From Veillonella montpellierensis DSM 17217 (GTDB lineage Bacteria; Bacillota; Negativicutes; Veillonellales; Veillonellaceae): 64,000 nucleotides of DNA. Position 1 is the stretch's first letter. Every line of letters starts with the position of its first letter. The stretch spans positions 39,683-103,682 of the forward strand of contig NZ_KE384563.1 in NCBI RefSeq assembly GCF_000426745.1. Reading direction: 5' to 3'. The translations under genes and the position numbers were made by a program. Positions 7,043 through 19,437 of this stretch are shown here, one piece after another. Under the pieces are notes generated by a model. That model worked only from the letters and a program-made list of their open reading frames with translations, had not been told where the DNA came from and did no database searches.

Positions 7043-7421
7043 ATATATCTCCTTTTATGCGTGTTAGATATTTTATACGATTACATATGTTGAAAGCTAG
7101 TTATAGTAGAACACGAAAGGTGGATACCACAGGACATGAATCGTATGACACGGGTAGCGATTAGATAATACGTGTATAATAGGTCAATTATACATTGGTA
7201 CTATTGTATAAAAAATCGTATACAGATCTCTGATTGGTCATAGCCATGATGGTAGTATGAAACTTTCAGCATATAAAATATCAGATGTAGCTGAAGCTAC
7301 AGATTTTGTTCTATGATTATAGTACACTATATTCGTAGTTATGACAAAGGTCATATCGTACAAGATATGAATAAGAATGAATAGTATATAAAGCGAGAAA
7401 GTCTCGTGAAGGAGGATCATT
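7043..7421. promoter_or_regulatory. Divergent intergenic region between the regulator and hcp
   Basis: This 379-base gap must hold promoters for both the leftward regulator and the rightward hydroxylamine reductase. Apart from the TGAC-N4-GTCA palindrome listed separately, it contains no open frame worth calling and no clear terminator. Confidence 0.5.
7340..7355. promoter_or_regulatory. Candidate HcpR/Crp-type operator upstream of hcp
   Basis: TATGAC-AAAG-GTCATA is a perfect 6+6 palindrome with a 4-base spacer, matching the TGAC-N4-GTCA core typical of Crp/Fnr and HcpR sites. Its centre is about 75 bases upstream of the hcp start codon. If the transcript starts near 7389, the site would sit at about -41.5, the position of a class II activator. 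The promoter itself is not clear. Confidence 0.5.
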
Positions 7422-8999
7422 ATGAGTATGTTTTGCTTTCAATGTGAACAATCAGCAGTACCAGGTGGTTGTACAGTACAAGGTGTTTGCGGTAAGAGTG
7501 AATCAGTTGCCACATTACAAGATCAAGTAACGGCGGCATTGATAGGATTAGCACGTGCTTGTAATGCGCATCGGGCTACAAGAGAAGCGATTAATATATT
7601 AAAAAAAGGTCTATTTATTTGTGTAACGAATGTAAATTTTGATGATACATCGATCAAAGCCTTTTTGGAAGAGGTACATGCGTGCCGAGATAGTATCGAT
7701 ACATCGATAGCAGATTTTGATTGGGAAGCACTTTGGACGGGAGATGAAGATATTGTATCCTTGCGCTCTACCTTATTGTTAGGATTGCGTGGTATGGGTG
7801 CCTATGCTTGGCATGCGGCGATATTAGGGTATAATGATGAACAGGTAGATGCTTGGTTCGTTAAGGGATTAGTGGAAGTGGCTACTGATCATTCTCCTGA
7901 AGAATGGTTAGACTTATTGATGGAATTTGGTAATGTTAATTTAGCGTGCATGGGTTTGTTGGATGCTGCTAATACAGAAACCTATGGTACACCAGAACCA
8001 ACAACAGTGCCTTTGACGGTAGAACCAGGACCATTTATCGTGGTTACAGGTCATGATTTACATGACTTGAAAATGTTATTGGAACAAACGAAGGGGACAG
8101 GCGTTAATGTGTATACCCATGGGGAAATGTTACCATGTCATGCATATCCAGAATTAAAAAAATATCCACAATTAAAAGGAAATTTTGGTACAGCATGGCA
8201 AAATCAGCAACAAGAATTTGATAACGTGCCAGGGTGTTTCTTGTTTACTACCAACTGTATTATGCCACCAAAAGAAAGTTATCAATCCCATATTTATACT
8301 ACCGATATGGTGGCTTTCCCAGGGTGCTCTTATATTCCTACGAAAGAGGACGGAACGAAGGATTTCTCGCCTATCATTGCACATGCTAAACGATTGGGAG
8401 GCTATCAAGAAGCACAAGAATTTACAGGTATTAATGGAGGCCACGAAGTGACTACTGGTTTTGGCCGTGGTACAGTTCTTAGTGTGGCGGATACAGTTAT
8501 CGACGCAGTAAAAGCAGGACAGATTAAACACTTCTTTTTAGTGGGCGGTTGTGATGGTGCTAAAGTAGGTCGTAATTACTATACTGAATTTGTTAAACAA
8601 ACACCAGCAGATACCGTTGTGTTAACGCTTGCTTGTGGTAAATATCGATTTAATGACCTTGATATGGGGACTATTGGGGGACTACCACGTATTATGGATA
8701 TGGGTCAATGTAATGATGCGTATTCAGCCATTCAAGTGGCATTAGCGTTAGCAAATGCCTTTGATTGCGATGTGAATGAGTTACCGTTGACACTCGTTTT
8801 ATCTTGGTACGAACAAAAAGCGGTTTGCATTTTATTGACTTTATTAGCATTAGGTATTCGCAATATCTATATTGGGCCATCGGTTCCTAAATTTTTCTCA
8901 TCCAATGTGTTGCAAATACTAGTGGACAAATTCCAATTACATCCGATTACGACACCTGAAGCGGATATGAAAGAAATACTAGGCTCTCATCAATCATAA
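7422..8999 (+). CDS. hcp: Hydroxylamine reductase (hybrid cluster protein, prismane), class I
   Basis: Cytoplasmic Fe-S protein that reduces hydroxylamine and/or nitric oxide and protects anaerobes from nitrosative stress. The N-terminus has Cys5, Cys8, Cys17 and Cys23, a CX2CX8CX5C spacing typical of class I (strict-anaerobe) Hcp rather than the CX2CX11CX6C of enterobacteria. Hybrid-cluster motifs follow: HGEMLPCHAYPEL, FTTNCIMPP, AFPGCSYIP and FLVGGCDGAK, plus the late LSWYEQKAV. At 525 residues the length is normal. An AAGGAGG site lies before the ATG. No hcr reductase gene is adjacent; electrons must come from elsewhere. A terminator follows at about 9200. Confidence 0.96.
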   Translation: MSMFCFQCEQSAVPGGCTVQGVCGKSESVATLQDQVTAALIGLARACNAHRATREAINILKKGLFICVTNVNFDDTSIKAFLEEVHACRDSIDTSIADFDWEALWTGDEDIVSLRSTLLLGLRGMGAYAWHAAILGYNDEQVDAWFVKGLVEVATDHSPEEWLDLLMEFGNVNLACMGLLDAANTETYGTPEPTTVPLTVEPGPFIVVTGHDLHDLKMLLEQTKGTGVNVYTHGEMLPCHAYPELKKYPQLKGNFGTAWQNQQQEFDNVPGCFLFTTNCIMPPKESYQSHIYTTDMVAFPGCSYIPTKEDGTKDFSPIIAHAKRLGGYQEAQEFTGINGGHEVTTGFGRGTVLSVADTVIDAVKAGQIKHFFLVGGCDGAKVGRNYYTEFVKQTPADTVVLTLACGKYRFNDLDMGTIGGLPRIMDMGQCNDAYSAIQVALALANAFDCDVNELPLTLVLSWYEQKAVCILLTLLALGIRNIYIGPSVPKFFSSNVLQILVDKFQLHPITTPEADMKEILGSHQS

Positions 9000-15314: not shown

Positions 15315-15356
15315 ATATAGTAAATGGTTAGTTAGTTGAGAGATGGAGAGATAGTT

Positions 15357-16214
15357 ATGTTGGAATTAAGAGGTAAAGCTGTTGCAGAGGCACATAAGAA
15401 AATATTATTAGAAAAGTTAGGGGCATTGAAAGAAAATAATACGATTCTTTCTATGGCGATTATATTGGTAGGCGATGATAAAGCGGCTGCTATGTATGCT
15501 AAATTTATGGAAAAAACTGCGTTACAAATAGGATTCAGTTGTCGACGTATTACATTGCCTACAACAGCTACACAAGAAGAGGTAATTGGCGTCGTGCAAT
15601 CATTGAATGAGGATCCTAGTATTCATGGCATTTTACCATTAATGCCTATGCCAAGTCATATTCATACAGATGCTATTATCGATACATTGGCACCCAAAAA
15701 AGATATTGATGGACTCACCACTTACAATATAGGGCGCATGACTTGTGGCAAACCAAGTTTAGTACCATGTACAGCTAAGGCGTGTATGGCGATATTAGCA
15801 CACTATAACATCTCTGTGGCAGGTAAAAAAGTTGTTGTTGTAGGTCGCAGTCAAGTGATTGGAAAACCGGTGGCATTAATGGTATTGGCACAACATGGGA
15901 CAGTGACTATTTGTCACTCCCGTACGGCTGATTTGCCTGGCACCGTGAAAGATGCAGATATTGTGATTGCTGCGGCTGGCAAGGCGCATATGATTACTGC
16001 GGATATGGTAAAAACAGGCGCTGTTATTATTGATGTGGGCATTAATGATTTAGATGGCACCACTATAGGCGATGTAGATTATACAAATGTAAGCAAAGTA
16101 GCTAGTGCGATTACGCCTGTACCAGGTGGAGTAGGATCAGTGACTACGACTATGATGCTAGAGTCTGTATATGAAGCGTACCAACTACAAAAGGCAGGGG
16201 ATATACATGCATGA
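15357..16214 (+). CDS. folD: FolD-like methylene-THF dehydrogenase/cyclohydrolase with altered active site
   Basis: FolD normally oxidises 5,10-methylene-THF and hydrolyses methenyl-THF to 10-formyl-THF. The whole fold is present in 285 residues: VVVVGRSQVIGKPVALMV (dinucleotide-binding region, about 160-178), KDIDGLTTYNIGRM, and ITPVPGGVGSVTTTMML near the end. Two catalytic positions differ. The motif YxxxKxK reads YAKFMEK (Y47, then Met51 where the essential Lys is expected), and the GILVQLPLP motif reads GILPLMPMP (Leu95 in place of the Gln). The Asp of DIDG is kept. Start at 15357 follows GGAGAG; a TTG at 15336 is less likely. The gene overlaps hypA by 8 bases. It is probably dehydrogenase-only or has a changed role. 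Confidence 0.88.
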   Translation: MLELRGKAVAEAHKKILLEKLGALKENNTILSMAIILVGDDKAAAMYAKFMEKTALQIGFSCRRITLPTTATQEEVIGVVQSLNEDPSIHGILPLMPMPSHIHTDAIIDTLAPKKDIDGLTTYNIGRMTCGKPSLVPCTAKACMAILAHYNISVAGKKVVVVGRSQVIGKPVALMVLAQHGTVTICHSRTADLPGTVKDADIVIAAAGKAHMITADMVKTGAVIIDVGINDLDGTTIGDVDYTNVSKVASAITPVPGGVGSVTTTMMLESVYEAYQLQKAGDIHA

Positions 16215-16548
16215 AATGTCGATAGCAGAGGGAATTGTTGATATTGCACTCGACACATTACAGAAAAATAATGGGACGGTGGTTCATAGTATTCAATTGA
16301 ATTTAGGTCGTATGAGTGGTGTTGAAAAAGAGGCACTCTTGTTTTGCTTTGATGCCGTTACTAAGGGAACACCTGCGGAAGGGGCAACACTTGCCATCAC
16401 AACCTTGCCAATCGTGGGTCATTGTGTGGATTGCGATAAGGAATTTCCCGTTGAAAACTATCGGTTTGTATGTCCCTATTGTAAAAGTCATATGATTGCT
16501 ACCGTAAGTGGCCGTGAATTACAAGTGACATCCATTGATATGGATTAA
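16207..16548 (+). CDS. hypA: Hydrogenase nickel incorporation protein HypA
   Basis: Small nickel and zinc metallochaperone that works with HypB to load nickel into NiFe hydrogenase (or urease in some bacteria). The 113-residue protein begins MHEMSIAEGIVDIA, placing the Ni-binding His at position 2, and carries a zinc site of two CxxC pairs (CVDCDKEF and CPYCKS). The true ATG at 16207 follows AGGCAGGGG inside the folD 3-prime end; the frame is open upstream but MHE is diagnostic. No hydrogenase structural gene is in the window. HypB follows after 150 bases with a hairpin in between. Confidence 0.95.
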   Translation: MHEMSIAEGIVDIALDTLQKNNGTVVHSIQLNLGRMSGVEKEALLFCFDAVTKGTPAEGATLAITTLPIVGHCVDCDKEFPVENYRFVCPYCKSHMIATVSGRELQVTSIDMD

Positions 16549-16698: not shown

Positions 16699-17349
16699 AT
16701 GGAAGTACCAGTAATGACAAATGTGCTAGCTAAGAATGATGCCATAGCACATAGTTTAAAAGAAGTATTTAAGGATAAACATATTTTTGTATTTAATTTA
16801 TTAGGTTCTCCAGGGGCGGGGAAAACGTCTTTACTAGAGGCTACATTAAAAGATTTAGTGAAAGACTATCGATTGGCTGTCATTGAAGGTGATTTATTTA
16901 CATCAAAAGATGCAGAACGAATTCATGCATTGGGTATACCTGTATTGCAAATCAATACAGTAGGAGGGTGTCACTTAGATGCACAGATGATAGAAAATGC
17001 ATTGCAAGAATTAGATTTAGATGCATTAGATATGATTATTATTGAAAATGTAGGTAATTTAGTATGCCCTGCAGAATTTGATATTGGGGAACATATGAAA
17101 GTGACTGTATTATCCGTTACAGAAGGGGAAGATAAACCGCTAAAATATCCTCTTATTTTCAAAGAGGCTGCTGCGGTTTTAGTCAATAAAATTGATTTAC
17201 TTCCGTATATTCCCTTTAATAAAGAAGTGGCGTTACGAGATATTCATAATTTAAATCCCCATGCAAAGATTTTCGAGATTAGTTGTACAACAAAGACTGG
17301 TCTCGATGCGTGGACATCATGGTTGCGGCAGCAGTTAGATAAACGGTAG
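16699..17349 (+). CDS. hypB: Hydrogenase nickel incorporation GTPase HypB
   Basis: SIMIBI-class GTPase that drives nickel delivery from HypA. The P-loop is GSPGAGKTSLLEA (about residues 35-47). It is followed by VIEGDLFTSKDAERI, then ENVGNLVCPAEFDIGE and the base-recognition motif NKIDLLPY. At 216 residues it is the short form: it lacks the N-terminal CxxCGC nickel site and the His-rich stretch found in some species, so it probably depends more on HypA. The start at 16699 has an AGAGGC site; the ATG at 16714 is an alternative. The downstream lipoprotein gene begins 9 bases after the stop, so they are probably co-transcribed. Confidence 0.95.
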   Translation: MEVPVMTNVLAKNDAIAHSLKEVFKDKHIFVFNLLGSPGAGKTSLLEATLKDLVKDYRLAVIEGDLFTSKDAERIHALGIPVLQINTVGGCHLDAQMIENALQELDLDALDMIIIENVGNLVCPAEFDIGEHMKVTVLSVTEGEDKPLKYPLIFKEAAAVLVNKIDLLPYIPFNKEVALRDIHNLNPHAKIFEISCTTKTGLDAWTSWLRQQLDKR

Positions 17350-17358
17350 AGGTATAAT

Positions 17359-19437
17359 ATGCATAAAAGACAATGGTTAGTAGCAGTTATTTTGAGTAGT
17401 ATGGTAGGTGCATGTAGTAGTTTGTCTATGGCTACATCGGAAGGCAATCAACAGGGATTAGTAGAACTAGCACCAAAAGAAGCGGCCCATCATCAGGTAC
17501 AACTTGACAATACGAAGCCCCATACAAGTGACACATCTCATAAAAGTATGGATACCACATCATCTTTACAAGAGGATCACAAACATGGGGTTATGCATGA
17601 TGATTTTGATTTAGCAAAAGTGGGTACCGATATTACGGCTAATAATTTATTTCCCATTGAAGGCTCTGACTTTTCCATGAATGGCTATTCCCTAGGTGAT
17701 GTATATAGAGGGGCTAAAATCGTCAATCAACATGCAGCATTCTTACTTTCAGAGAAAGAAAGAAAGGATGAGGAAACAAAGAAAAAGGACACGATGAATA
17801 CGAATCAGTCCTTAGCGGAGCGATTGGCGGCAAAGCGAGATAAACATGAAGGTCGTAAGGATGGGCATGACAAAGTTACATCTGATACGAATGAACATAC
17901 TGATTCTGTTACGTCAACACAGAAAGAGTTGAAGAATAGTCAAGAAGATAAGGATGGGCATGCAACGGAGGCATCTCGGGTAAATCAGGATGAAAAGTCT
18001 TGCAATAAGGATAAAAAACAGTCACTTGCTAAGACAGCACCGACAAAGATAAAAAGCACTACAGAAGAGAAGACTGTTGATAGGAACGATAGTAGTGAAG
18101 GTCAAGACATAGGCTCTTGCGAGAAAGAGTTGGATCATGATCGCATGCAGCCTAAGGGTAAGGTGGAACCAAGCGTAGATGACAATAAGACGGCTAAGAA
18201 AAAGGAAACATCCCTATCAGGACATCTTGTGTGTGCCGTACCCGCTATGGAAATGATGGAAGAATCGTCTTCAACGATGCATAGTGAAATGAAGAAAGGT
18301 GTAAAGAATATTAGTTCTGGTGAAGATGAGCATGTCCAGCATACAACGGTAAAGGATAAGAAAGTGGCGGATCTCAAGACAGATTCTTCTAAGAAACATA
18401 CACAGTCTACTAATGCAAAGCAAGCTACTAAGCATAGTCATAGTGAAAAACAACAGCCTACGGCAAAGGATGAAGAGAAGGTAAAAGATAGTTTTACCTT
18501 GCCAGAAGGTATTGGTTGGCATGATGTGTTACAGGTTAAGAGTAATGATAATTTTACGACCTATACAATGATAGGCTCTACTATTACTACCTATACAGGG
18601 GTTGAATCAAAGCGGTTTGCTCATCAACGCTTGCGTGGGCAAGGAGCACATTATTTTTATTCAAAGGATGGTACAATTACTAATATCCATGTAGAGCATG
18701 GAGAGGGAACTACTGTACGGGATATCGGTATTGGTAATACACGAGGCGAAACATTGTTTGCCTATGGAGCACCTAATGTGATTTGGCGCGATGCGAATAC
18801 ATCGGATTTGCTATTTCTCTATGAAGGGCATAGTCAGTTTTATGATATACGAAATGATCGTGTCACTCGCGCACCGCGTATGACACAAGATGCGGCTTCG
18901 CAAATGAAAAATAAGAGATATTTGTTATTCACATTCCATGATGATAAAATTAAGGCCATTGATATGATTGATGGGCAAGTGTGGCCACGATTAGGTGCGC
19001 CTAATCTAAGAATGAATCATTTTCAGGCGGGACAATTAACCTCGGAAGATTTTGTATTGCGTGGCTTACAGTTAAATGATACTTTCCATGGTAGTGTAGA
19101 TGGAGAATGGAAAACGAGAGGCACTGTATTTAATTCAGATTTTATTTCCTATCGAGATTACGCAGTAGGCATTGACAAGAAACAATGTATTAATCGCATA
19201 TTTTTAAATGGTAATTCGTCGACCACACGACGTGGAGTAACTATTGGTGACACTAAGTATTTACTATTATATATGTATGGGGAACCAACACATATTGAAA
19301 CGGTAGATGGTGAACATATATATGAATATAAAAATCCATTTGCAAATAATAGTTACTTGTTGTTTACTATAGATAAGAAGGATAAATTTATTAATATGGT
19401 TATGGTATCGGATCGTCCTGCCAGTCGGCTACGATAA
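17359..19437 (+). CDS. Large lipoprotein with charged linker and repeated BamE-like C-terminal motifs
   Basis: Not a family I can name. The N-terminus (MHKRQWLVAVILSSMVGAC) is a lipoprotein signal with the lipobox VGAC, giving acylated Cys19. Residues about 130-375 are a disordered, K/E/D/T/S/H-rich linker. The C-terminal 310 residues contain two related units (about 395-540 and 565-690). Each has a glycine-led motif (GIGNTRGETLFAYGAP; GVTIGDTKYLLLYMYGEP), then an acidic segment and a YLLFT...DMI/MVM strand. The pattern resembles BamE/SmpA-OmlA repeats, but that is my inference. A periplasmic or outer-membrane location is likely. AGAGG precedes the ATG, and it directly follows hypB. Confidence 0.8.
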   Translation: MHKRQWLVAVILSSMVGACSSLSMATSEGNQQGLVELAPKEAAHHQVQLDNTKPHTSDTSHKSMDTTSSLQEDHKHGVMHDDFDLAKVGTDITANNLFPIEGSDFSMNGYSLGDVYRGAKIVNQHAAFLLSEKERKDEETKKKDTMNTNQSLAERLAAKRDKHEGRKDGHDKVTSDTNEHTDSVTSTQKELKNSQEDKDGHATEASRVNQDEKSCNKDKKQSLAKTAPTKIKSTTEEKTVDRNDSSEGQDIGSCEKELDHDRMQPKGKVEPSVDDNKTAKKKETSLSGHLVCAVPAMEMMEESSSTMHSEMKKGVKNISSGEDEHVQHTTVKDKKVADLKTDSSKKHTQSTNAKQATKHSHSEKQQPTAKDEEKVKDSFTLPEGIGWHDVLQVKSNDNFTTYTMIGSTITTYTGVESKRFAHQRLRGQGAHYFYSKDGTITNIHVEHGEGTTVRDIGIGNTRGETLFAYGAPNVIWRDANTSDLLFLYEGHSQFYDIRNDRVTRAPRMTQDAASQMKNKRYLLFTFHDDKIKAIDMIDGQVWPRLGAPNLRMNHFQAGQLTSEDFVLRGLQLNDTFHGSVDGEWKTRGTVFNSDFISYRDYAVGIDKKQCINRIFLNGNSSTTRRGVTIGDTKYLLLYMYGEPTHIETVDGEHIYEYKNPFANNSYLLFTIDKKDKFINMVMVSDRPASRLR

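Follow-up and report, generated by a model that had tools for sequence, protein, structure and literature searches.

The window, a 64,000-nucleotide stretch of a Veillonella genome, carries a folD gene, and the locus raises the question of whether its product still has both activities of bifunctional FolD, 5,10-methylene-THF dehydrogenase and methenyl-THF cyclohydrolase. In the bifunctional enzymes a Lys acts in the cyclohydrolase reaction, a Gln positions this Lys and an Asp binds the pterin (PMC3338484). A preliminary description of the window had placed Met at the catalytic Lys and Leu at the Gln, with the Asp, the nucleotide region and the PVPGGVG motif intact, and all of this was confirmed by the translation and the codons (Table 1).

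Active site of the window FolD

The Y-x3-K-x-K motif reads Y47-A-K-F-M51-E-K53 in the translation, its first Lys (human Lys56) having become Met, and the counterpart of GILVQLPLP is G91-ILPLMPMP, with Leu95 at the Gln site and Pro94 at the Val site. K115-D116-I117-D118-G, the nucleotide motif GRSQVIGKP and PVPGGVG are kept; after the last, the usual P-M-T is replaced by S-V-T and a further Ile by Thr264, differences that are group-wide. The ATG start codon agrees with that of Veillonella orthologues (MIELRGKAV...), and an alternative, longer frame opens at a TTG at 15336.

Both Pfam domains matched at full length (PF00763, 103.9 bits, cut-off 32.8; PF02882, 204.5 bits, cut-off 27), and the AlphaFold model, with a mean pLDDT of 93.4, had FolD structures as its nearest folds (TM 0.94 to 3l07; rmsd 1.2-1.4 Å). 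The protein resembles the bifunctional FolD of E. coli and the DC domain of human MTHFD1 in fold (TM up to 0.94), length, the equivalents of Tyr50 and Asp121, the GRS motif and PVPGGVG, but differs from them in S-V-T for P-M-T and in Met51 and Leu95 where they have Lys54 and Gln98, the dyad by which a bifunctional FolD is recognised. Against the NCBIfam models for bifunctional FolD its best score was 286.4 bits versus 445, and it fell under the cut-off for all 25 models listed. Folate-binding Tyr47 and Asp118, together with the complete nucleotide site (GRSQVIGKP and PVPGGVG), supply what a monofunctional dehydrogenase requires. Arg164 and Ser188 are also retained, and we take Ser188, matched through the CHS-T motif, to be the equivalent of MTHFD1 Ser197. 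Since MTHFD1 Ser197 binds the 2′-phosphate of NADP (PMC9173628), NADP+ is the likelier cofactor and probably the one used.

Table 1. Positions in the window of folD, its diagnostic codons and the genes that follow it
Feature	Position	Strand	Remark
folD	15357..16214	+	285 aa; without the cyclohydrolase dyad; sole FolD of the genome
Tyr47 codon	15495..15497	+	intact substrate-stacking Tyr, equivalent to E. coli Tyr50
Met51 codon (ATG)	15507..15509	+	site of E. coli Lys54, the cyclohydrolase general acid/base (role: PMC3338484, PMC5688156)
Leu95 codon (TTA)	15639..15641	+	site of E. coli Gln98, which positions Lys54 and Tyr50
Asp118 codon (GAT)	15708..15710	+	intact pterin-binding Asp, equivalent to E. 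coli Asp121
hypA	16207..16548	+	first 8 nt shared with the end of folD (16207-16214)
hypB-like GTPase (CobW/HypB/UreG)	16699..17349	+	next gene of the folD-hypA run

The E. coli enzyme offers a guide to what such replacements cost. With K54N cyclohydrolase activity is undetectable and dehydrogenase activity about 19%, and with Q98H the two are about 1% and about 8%, respectively (PMC5688156). Because these single mutants lost most of their dehydrogenase activity, the natural enzyme would need other adjustments, or may be slow. FolDs with a hydrophobic residue at each dyad site (hydrophobic-pair FolDs) are best separated from those with the classical Lys and Gln at positions 51, 95, 264 (Ile to Thr, Asn or Ser), 167 (Ile to Val), 261 (Pro to Ser) and 262, and positions 167, 261, 262 and 264 are presumably candidate sites of changes that restored the dehydrogenase rate. 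The preliminary description had named a compensating Lys in the same pocket as evidence against its reading, and the alignment contained no position at which hydrophobic-pair FolDs conserve a Lys that FolDs with the classical Lys and Gln (K/Q) do not. Lys49 of the window FolD was rejected as a substitute because it is not conserved among relatives.

FchA and the folD neighbourhood in Veillonella

The genome (1.87 Mb in 40 contigs, 99.98% complete) was surveyed by family searches and in two 20-kb stretches. PF00763 returned the window FolD and nothing else, which excludes a second, bifunctional FolD, and PF04961 returned a single protein (E 4.8e-63), the 206-aa product of an fchA gene that lies 16 bp downstream of fhs on the same strand of contig C3. 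The search for a second folD or an fchA that the preliminary description had proposed thus found the separate enzyme that it predicted, directly after fhs and in a genome with one FolD. Its wording that such an enzyme must exist was too strong, since methenyl-THF hydrolyses spontaneously and E. coli FolD mutants without cyclohydrolase are viable, growing slowly (PMC5688156).

A separate FchA enzyme has already been described (PMC7219735). The best solved relative of the protein found here is the methenyl-THF cyclohydrolase 7vg4 (E 2.9e-39), which is not homologous to FolD and represents the activity presumed missing from the window FolD. The best and only NCBIfam match of the Veillonella protein was the equivalog NF045657, at 203.7 bits and under the cut-off of 275, so that the name FchA rests on Pfam, on similarity to 7vg4 and on adjacency to fhs; the PF04961 family includes cyclodeaminases as well. 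Downstream of fhs-fchA, a regulator-like protein and a nucleobase permease-like transporter were identified by eye at 7238-8569 and 9151-10758 of L363 (contig C3), and these neighbours may hint at a purine-linked use of the formyl-THF pathway.

The altered dyad recurs across the genus. Met/Leu was present in all 14 Veillonella genomes sampled and in the FolDs of V. infantium, V. rogosae, V. tobetsuensis, V. atypica and V. agrestimuris (67-69% identity), several of which coincide with genomes among the 14. Between V. infantium and V. rogosae, the sole unsaturated pair, dN/dS of folD was 0.008, indicating purifying selection; values for the remaining pairs were low too, but with synonymous sites near or beyond saturation. 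The recurrence of Met/Leu across the genus and the low dN/dS rule out a sequencing error or a pseudogene. Every genome sampled from the order has one FolD, of the hydrophobic type wherever the sites were read.

Gene order around folD is also kept in Veillonella (serine dehydratase-cca-pbp-folD-hypA-hypB), and this order, together with the 8-nt overlap of folD and hypA, makes it probable that folD is co-translated with the nickel-hydrogenase maturation genes. Farther along, positions 17359-19437 encode a 692-aa secreted-looking protein without a Pfam match; its Veillonella homologues have 471 and 506 aa, and the window copy adds a long stretch rich in Lys, Ser, Thr and Asp. A plasmid search with the window gave no match.

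We conclude that the window FolD is very probably a 5,10-methylene-THF dehydrogenase that no longer has methenyl-THF cyclohydrolase activity and is partnered by FchA. The enzyme would oxidise methylene-THF to methenyl-THF and release it, and FchA would hydrate the methenyl-THF to 10-formyl-THF for use by Fhs and purine synthesis, in a pathway that would be reversible. With FchA in place, the site shared by dehydrogenase and cyclohydrolase would have come under relaxed selection and the dyad could have been replaced as a unit, after which a clade of hydrophobic-pair FolDs would have spread with FchA retained.

FolD types, fchA and their history

Our sample comprised 200 genomes from the class and 299 from the phylum; we extracted their FolD genes and read both dyad positions in about 300 genomes, low-scoring FolDs nearly completely and high-scoring ones by sample. 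Outside the reading were eight or more genomes from the phylum that lack fchA and have PF00763 scores in the middle range (e.g. G253, G284, G295, G301, G346, G384, G424 and G465); against the hydrophobic-pair profile their FolDs score like K/Q proteins, which suggests that they are K/Q. Four types of FolD were found: the classical K/Q, a K/E type, the hydrophobic pair, and a set with KDVEG for KDVDG. Hydrophobic pairs include Leu/Met, Ala/Phe, Met/Leu, Met/Met, Ile/Phe and others, and the Lys and Gln sites change jointly (L/M 36, A/F 33, M/L 28, M/M 19). Across the main alignment, the equivalent of Asp118 is invariant in all 155 proteins with a hydrophobic pair. The preliminary description had called the Lys and Gln nearly invariant in bifunctional FolD, and this fails here, the K/Q pair being gone in whole Negativicutes families and many other Bacillota; the window FolD is therefore a member of a subfamily and not an oddity.

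Genomes with a hydrophobic-pair FolD carried fchA in 156 cases and lacked it in two (141 to 1 in the main set, 15 to 1 in a supplement). Both exceptions are MAGs, G513 (94% complete, 210 contigs) and G115 (92% complete), and the congeners of the latter, G079 and G118, carry fchA. Among genomes with only K/Q FolD, 23 had fchA, 15 had a weak PF04961 match and 63 had none (61 in the main set, two in the supplement). For the main set the association of hydrophobic pair and fchA gave a Fisher p of 8e-29, a value that ignores kinship and does not express the strength of independent evidence. By family, 38 of the 39 with a hydrophobic-pair FolD were wholly fchA-positive; of the 56 with a K/Q FolD, 18 were wholly positive and 25 wholly negative. 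The putative division of labour between FolD and FchA recurs in over 150 further genomes of bacteria, mostly of Bacillota.

The two genes are also frequently neighbours. Outside Negativicutes, both coordinates were listed for 45 hydrophobic-pair genomes, and in 35 of these folD and fchA shared a strand and were no more than about 250 bp apart (manual count); in five MAGs of Treponema, fchA directly precedes folD. The Veillonella linkage differs, with an fhs-fchA pair in place of folD-fchA. Five genomes, all with fchA, have both a K/Q and a hydrophobic-pair FolD, among them G092 (L040/L005), G006 (L041/L020) and G010 (L042/L008). In family f12 the only listed genome with a strong fchA, G195, has a FolD (L025) that stays K/Q, and from this case the gain of fchA may precede the loss of the dyad.

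In a FolD tree built with the motif columns removed, 47 of 50 hydrophobic-pair representatives formed one clade (SH-aLRT 84) that spans Negativicutes, many other Bacillota and Treponema; this main clade is old. Two further hydrophobic-pair FolDs (Leu/Met and Leu/Leu), from fchA-positive genomes, nest within the K/E clade (support 99 and 98), so dyad loss arose at least twice. Because most hydrophobic-pair FolDs are monophyletic, their co-occurrence with fchA stands for many fewer independent events than 158. A test of dyad loss against fchA on phylogenetically independent pairs yielded a single pair and had no power, so that dependence is argued from the retention of fchA throughout this large clade, from gene adjacency and from the mechanism.

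The remaining types form groups of their own. K/E FolDs (GIMVELPLP, with Lys kept and Gln changed to Glu) comprise L032, L114 and L338-L347 (e.g. L341, L342, L343 and L347). Their genomes have fchA in 22 cases against one without, often directly downstream, and the K/E protein may be an intermediate form or one that is tuned differently. The KDVEG clade of FolD-like proteins (L044, L262, L264, L268, L272, L277, L278, L285, L287, L294, L296, L313 and others) has Gln/His, Gln/Gln or Ile/Gln at the Lys/Gln sites, in genomes with or without fchA. It is often a second copy beside a K/Q FolD, in tandem in G323, G331 and G350.

Alternative explanations and significance

We considered whether the window FolD might keep a useful cyclohydrolase through other groups or a bound water, with FchA serving mainly elsewhere, for example in the cyclodeamination of formimino-THF during purine or histidine breakdown. 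The cyclodeaminases within PF04961 and the permease-like gene a few genes from fhs-fchA fit such a role, and simulations of MTHFD2 could not settle the Lys as the base (PMC9173628). The window enzyme, however, alters both of the sites at which one change each left E. coli FolD with no detectable or about 1% cyclohydrolase, the hydrophobic-pair alignment offers no substitute Lys, and fchA adjoins fhs here and folD itself elsewhere; we regard retained cyclohydrolase as improbable. The loss of about 80-90% of dehydrogenase activity in the E. coli single mutants (PMC5688156) could instead be taken to mean that the protein was put to use in a different reaction on a pterin or folate and lost methylene-THF dehydrogenase as well. 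That would leave a genome whose sole FolD, with Tyr47, Asp118, the nucleotide site and the FolD fold intact, no longer served its pathway, in an order whose sampled genomes each have a single FolD, of the same type where read, and we give this reading very little weight.

Two other explanations concern the cause of the dyad loss and its link to fchA. Carolacton, a natural inhibitor, hydrogen-bonds Lys54, and K54N and Q98H, which alter exactly the dyad, are resistance mutations in E. coli, K54N being fully insensitive (PMC5688156); the dyad might have been lost as the inhibitor's anchor, with FchA merely making the loss tolerable. We found no link between these anaerobes and carolacton exposure, and the change is old and clade-wide, so escape from the inhibitor seems highly unlikely; it addresses why the dyad was lost, not what the enzyme does, and is compatible with a dehydrogenase-only FolD plus FchA. 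The association with fchA could also be a historical accident of one old fchA-bearing clade rather than functional dependence, as the single main clade and the lone independent pair would allow. Against this, fchA has practically never been lost across a clade of 39 families and two phyla while K/Q lineages are often without it, folD and fchA are adjacent in most genomes, and the second origin, within the Lys/Glu group, is likewise fchA-positive. We therefore judge an accident unlikely, if somewhat less so than the other three alternatives.

Monofunctional methylene-THF dehydrogenases are already known biochemically. PMC6443876 cites an NADP-dependent one from Peptostreptococcus productus, also an anaerobic member of Bacillota, which is like the window FolD in expected activity. 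Yeast MTD1 (1edz; references in PMC11064299) is a NAD-dependent dehydrogenase of the FolD family without cyclohydrolase; it is eukaryotic, NAD-linked and very distant from the window FolD (E 1.5e-9 for a partial match), and we imply no shared origin for the two losses. A survey of 43 acetogens termed folD bifunctional, though most of the genomes also have fchA (PMC10103890). Our literature search found no paper that describes the residue signature or ties dyad loss to fchA; most subscription journals lay outside it, and an earlier description is possible.

The preference for a dehydrogenase-only FolD is well supported by these comparisons, the mechanism is ordinary, and the value of the finding would lie in reannotation at the level of the subfamily. 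With more reserve, we think it reasonably likely that hydrophobic-pair FolDs form an ancient, widespread subfamily that depends on FchA and is insensitive to inhibitors of the carolacton type, that the Lys/Glu proteins are a further fchA-linked variant, and that sequence alone can separate dehydrogenase-only from bifunctional FolD in anaerobes. Because FolD is usually annotated as bifunctional, one-carbon models probably give the cyclohydrolase step to the wrong gene and deem fchA redundant in Veillonella and the other Negativicutes, in many further Bacillota and in Treponema of the gut; a two-residue test at the Lys and Gln sites would correct the annotation. If the reading as a dehydrogenase partnered by FchA is true, fchA would bear the cyclohydrolase flux in organisms with a hydrophobic-pair FolD, and inhibitors of FolD that use the Lys as their anchor, such as carolacton, would be ineffective on these organisms. 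In evolutionary terms, the family would offer a clean case, repeated at least once, of a shared active site that drops one of its reactions after a second enzyme has come to cover it.
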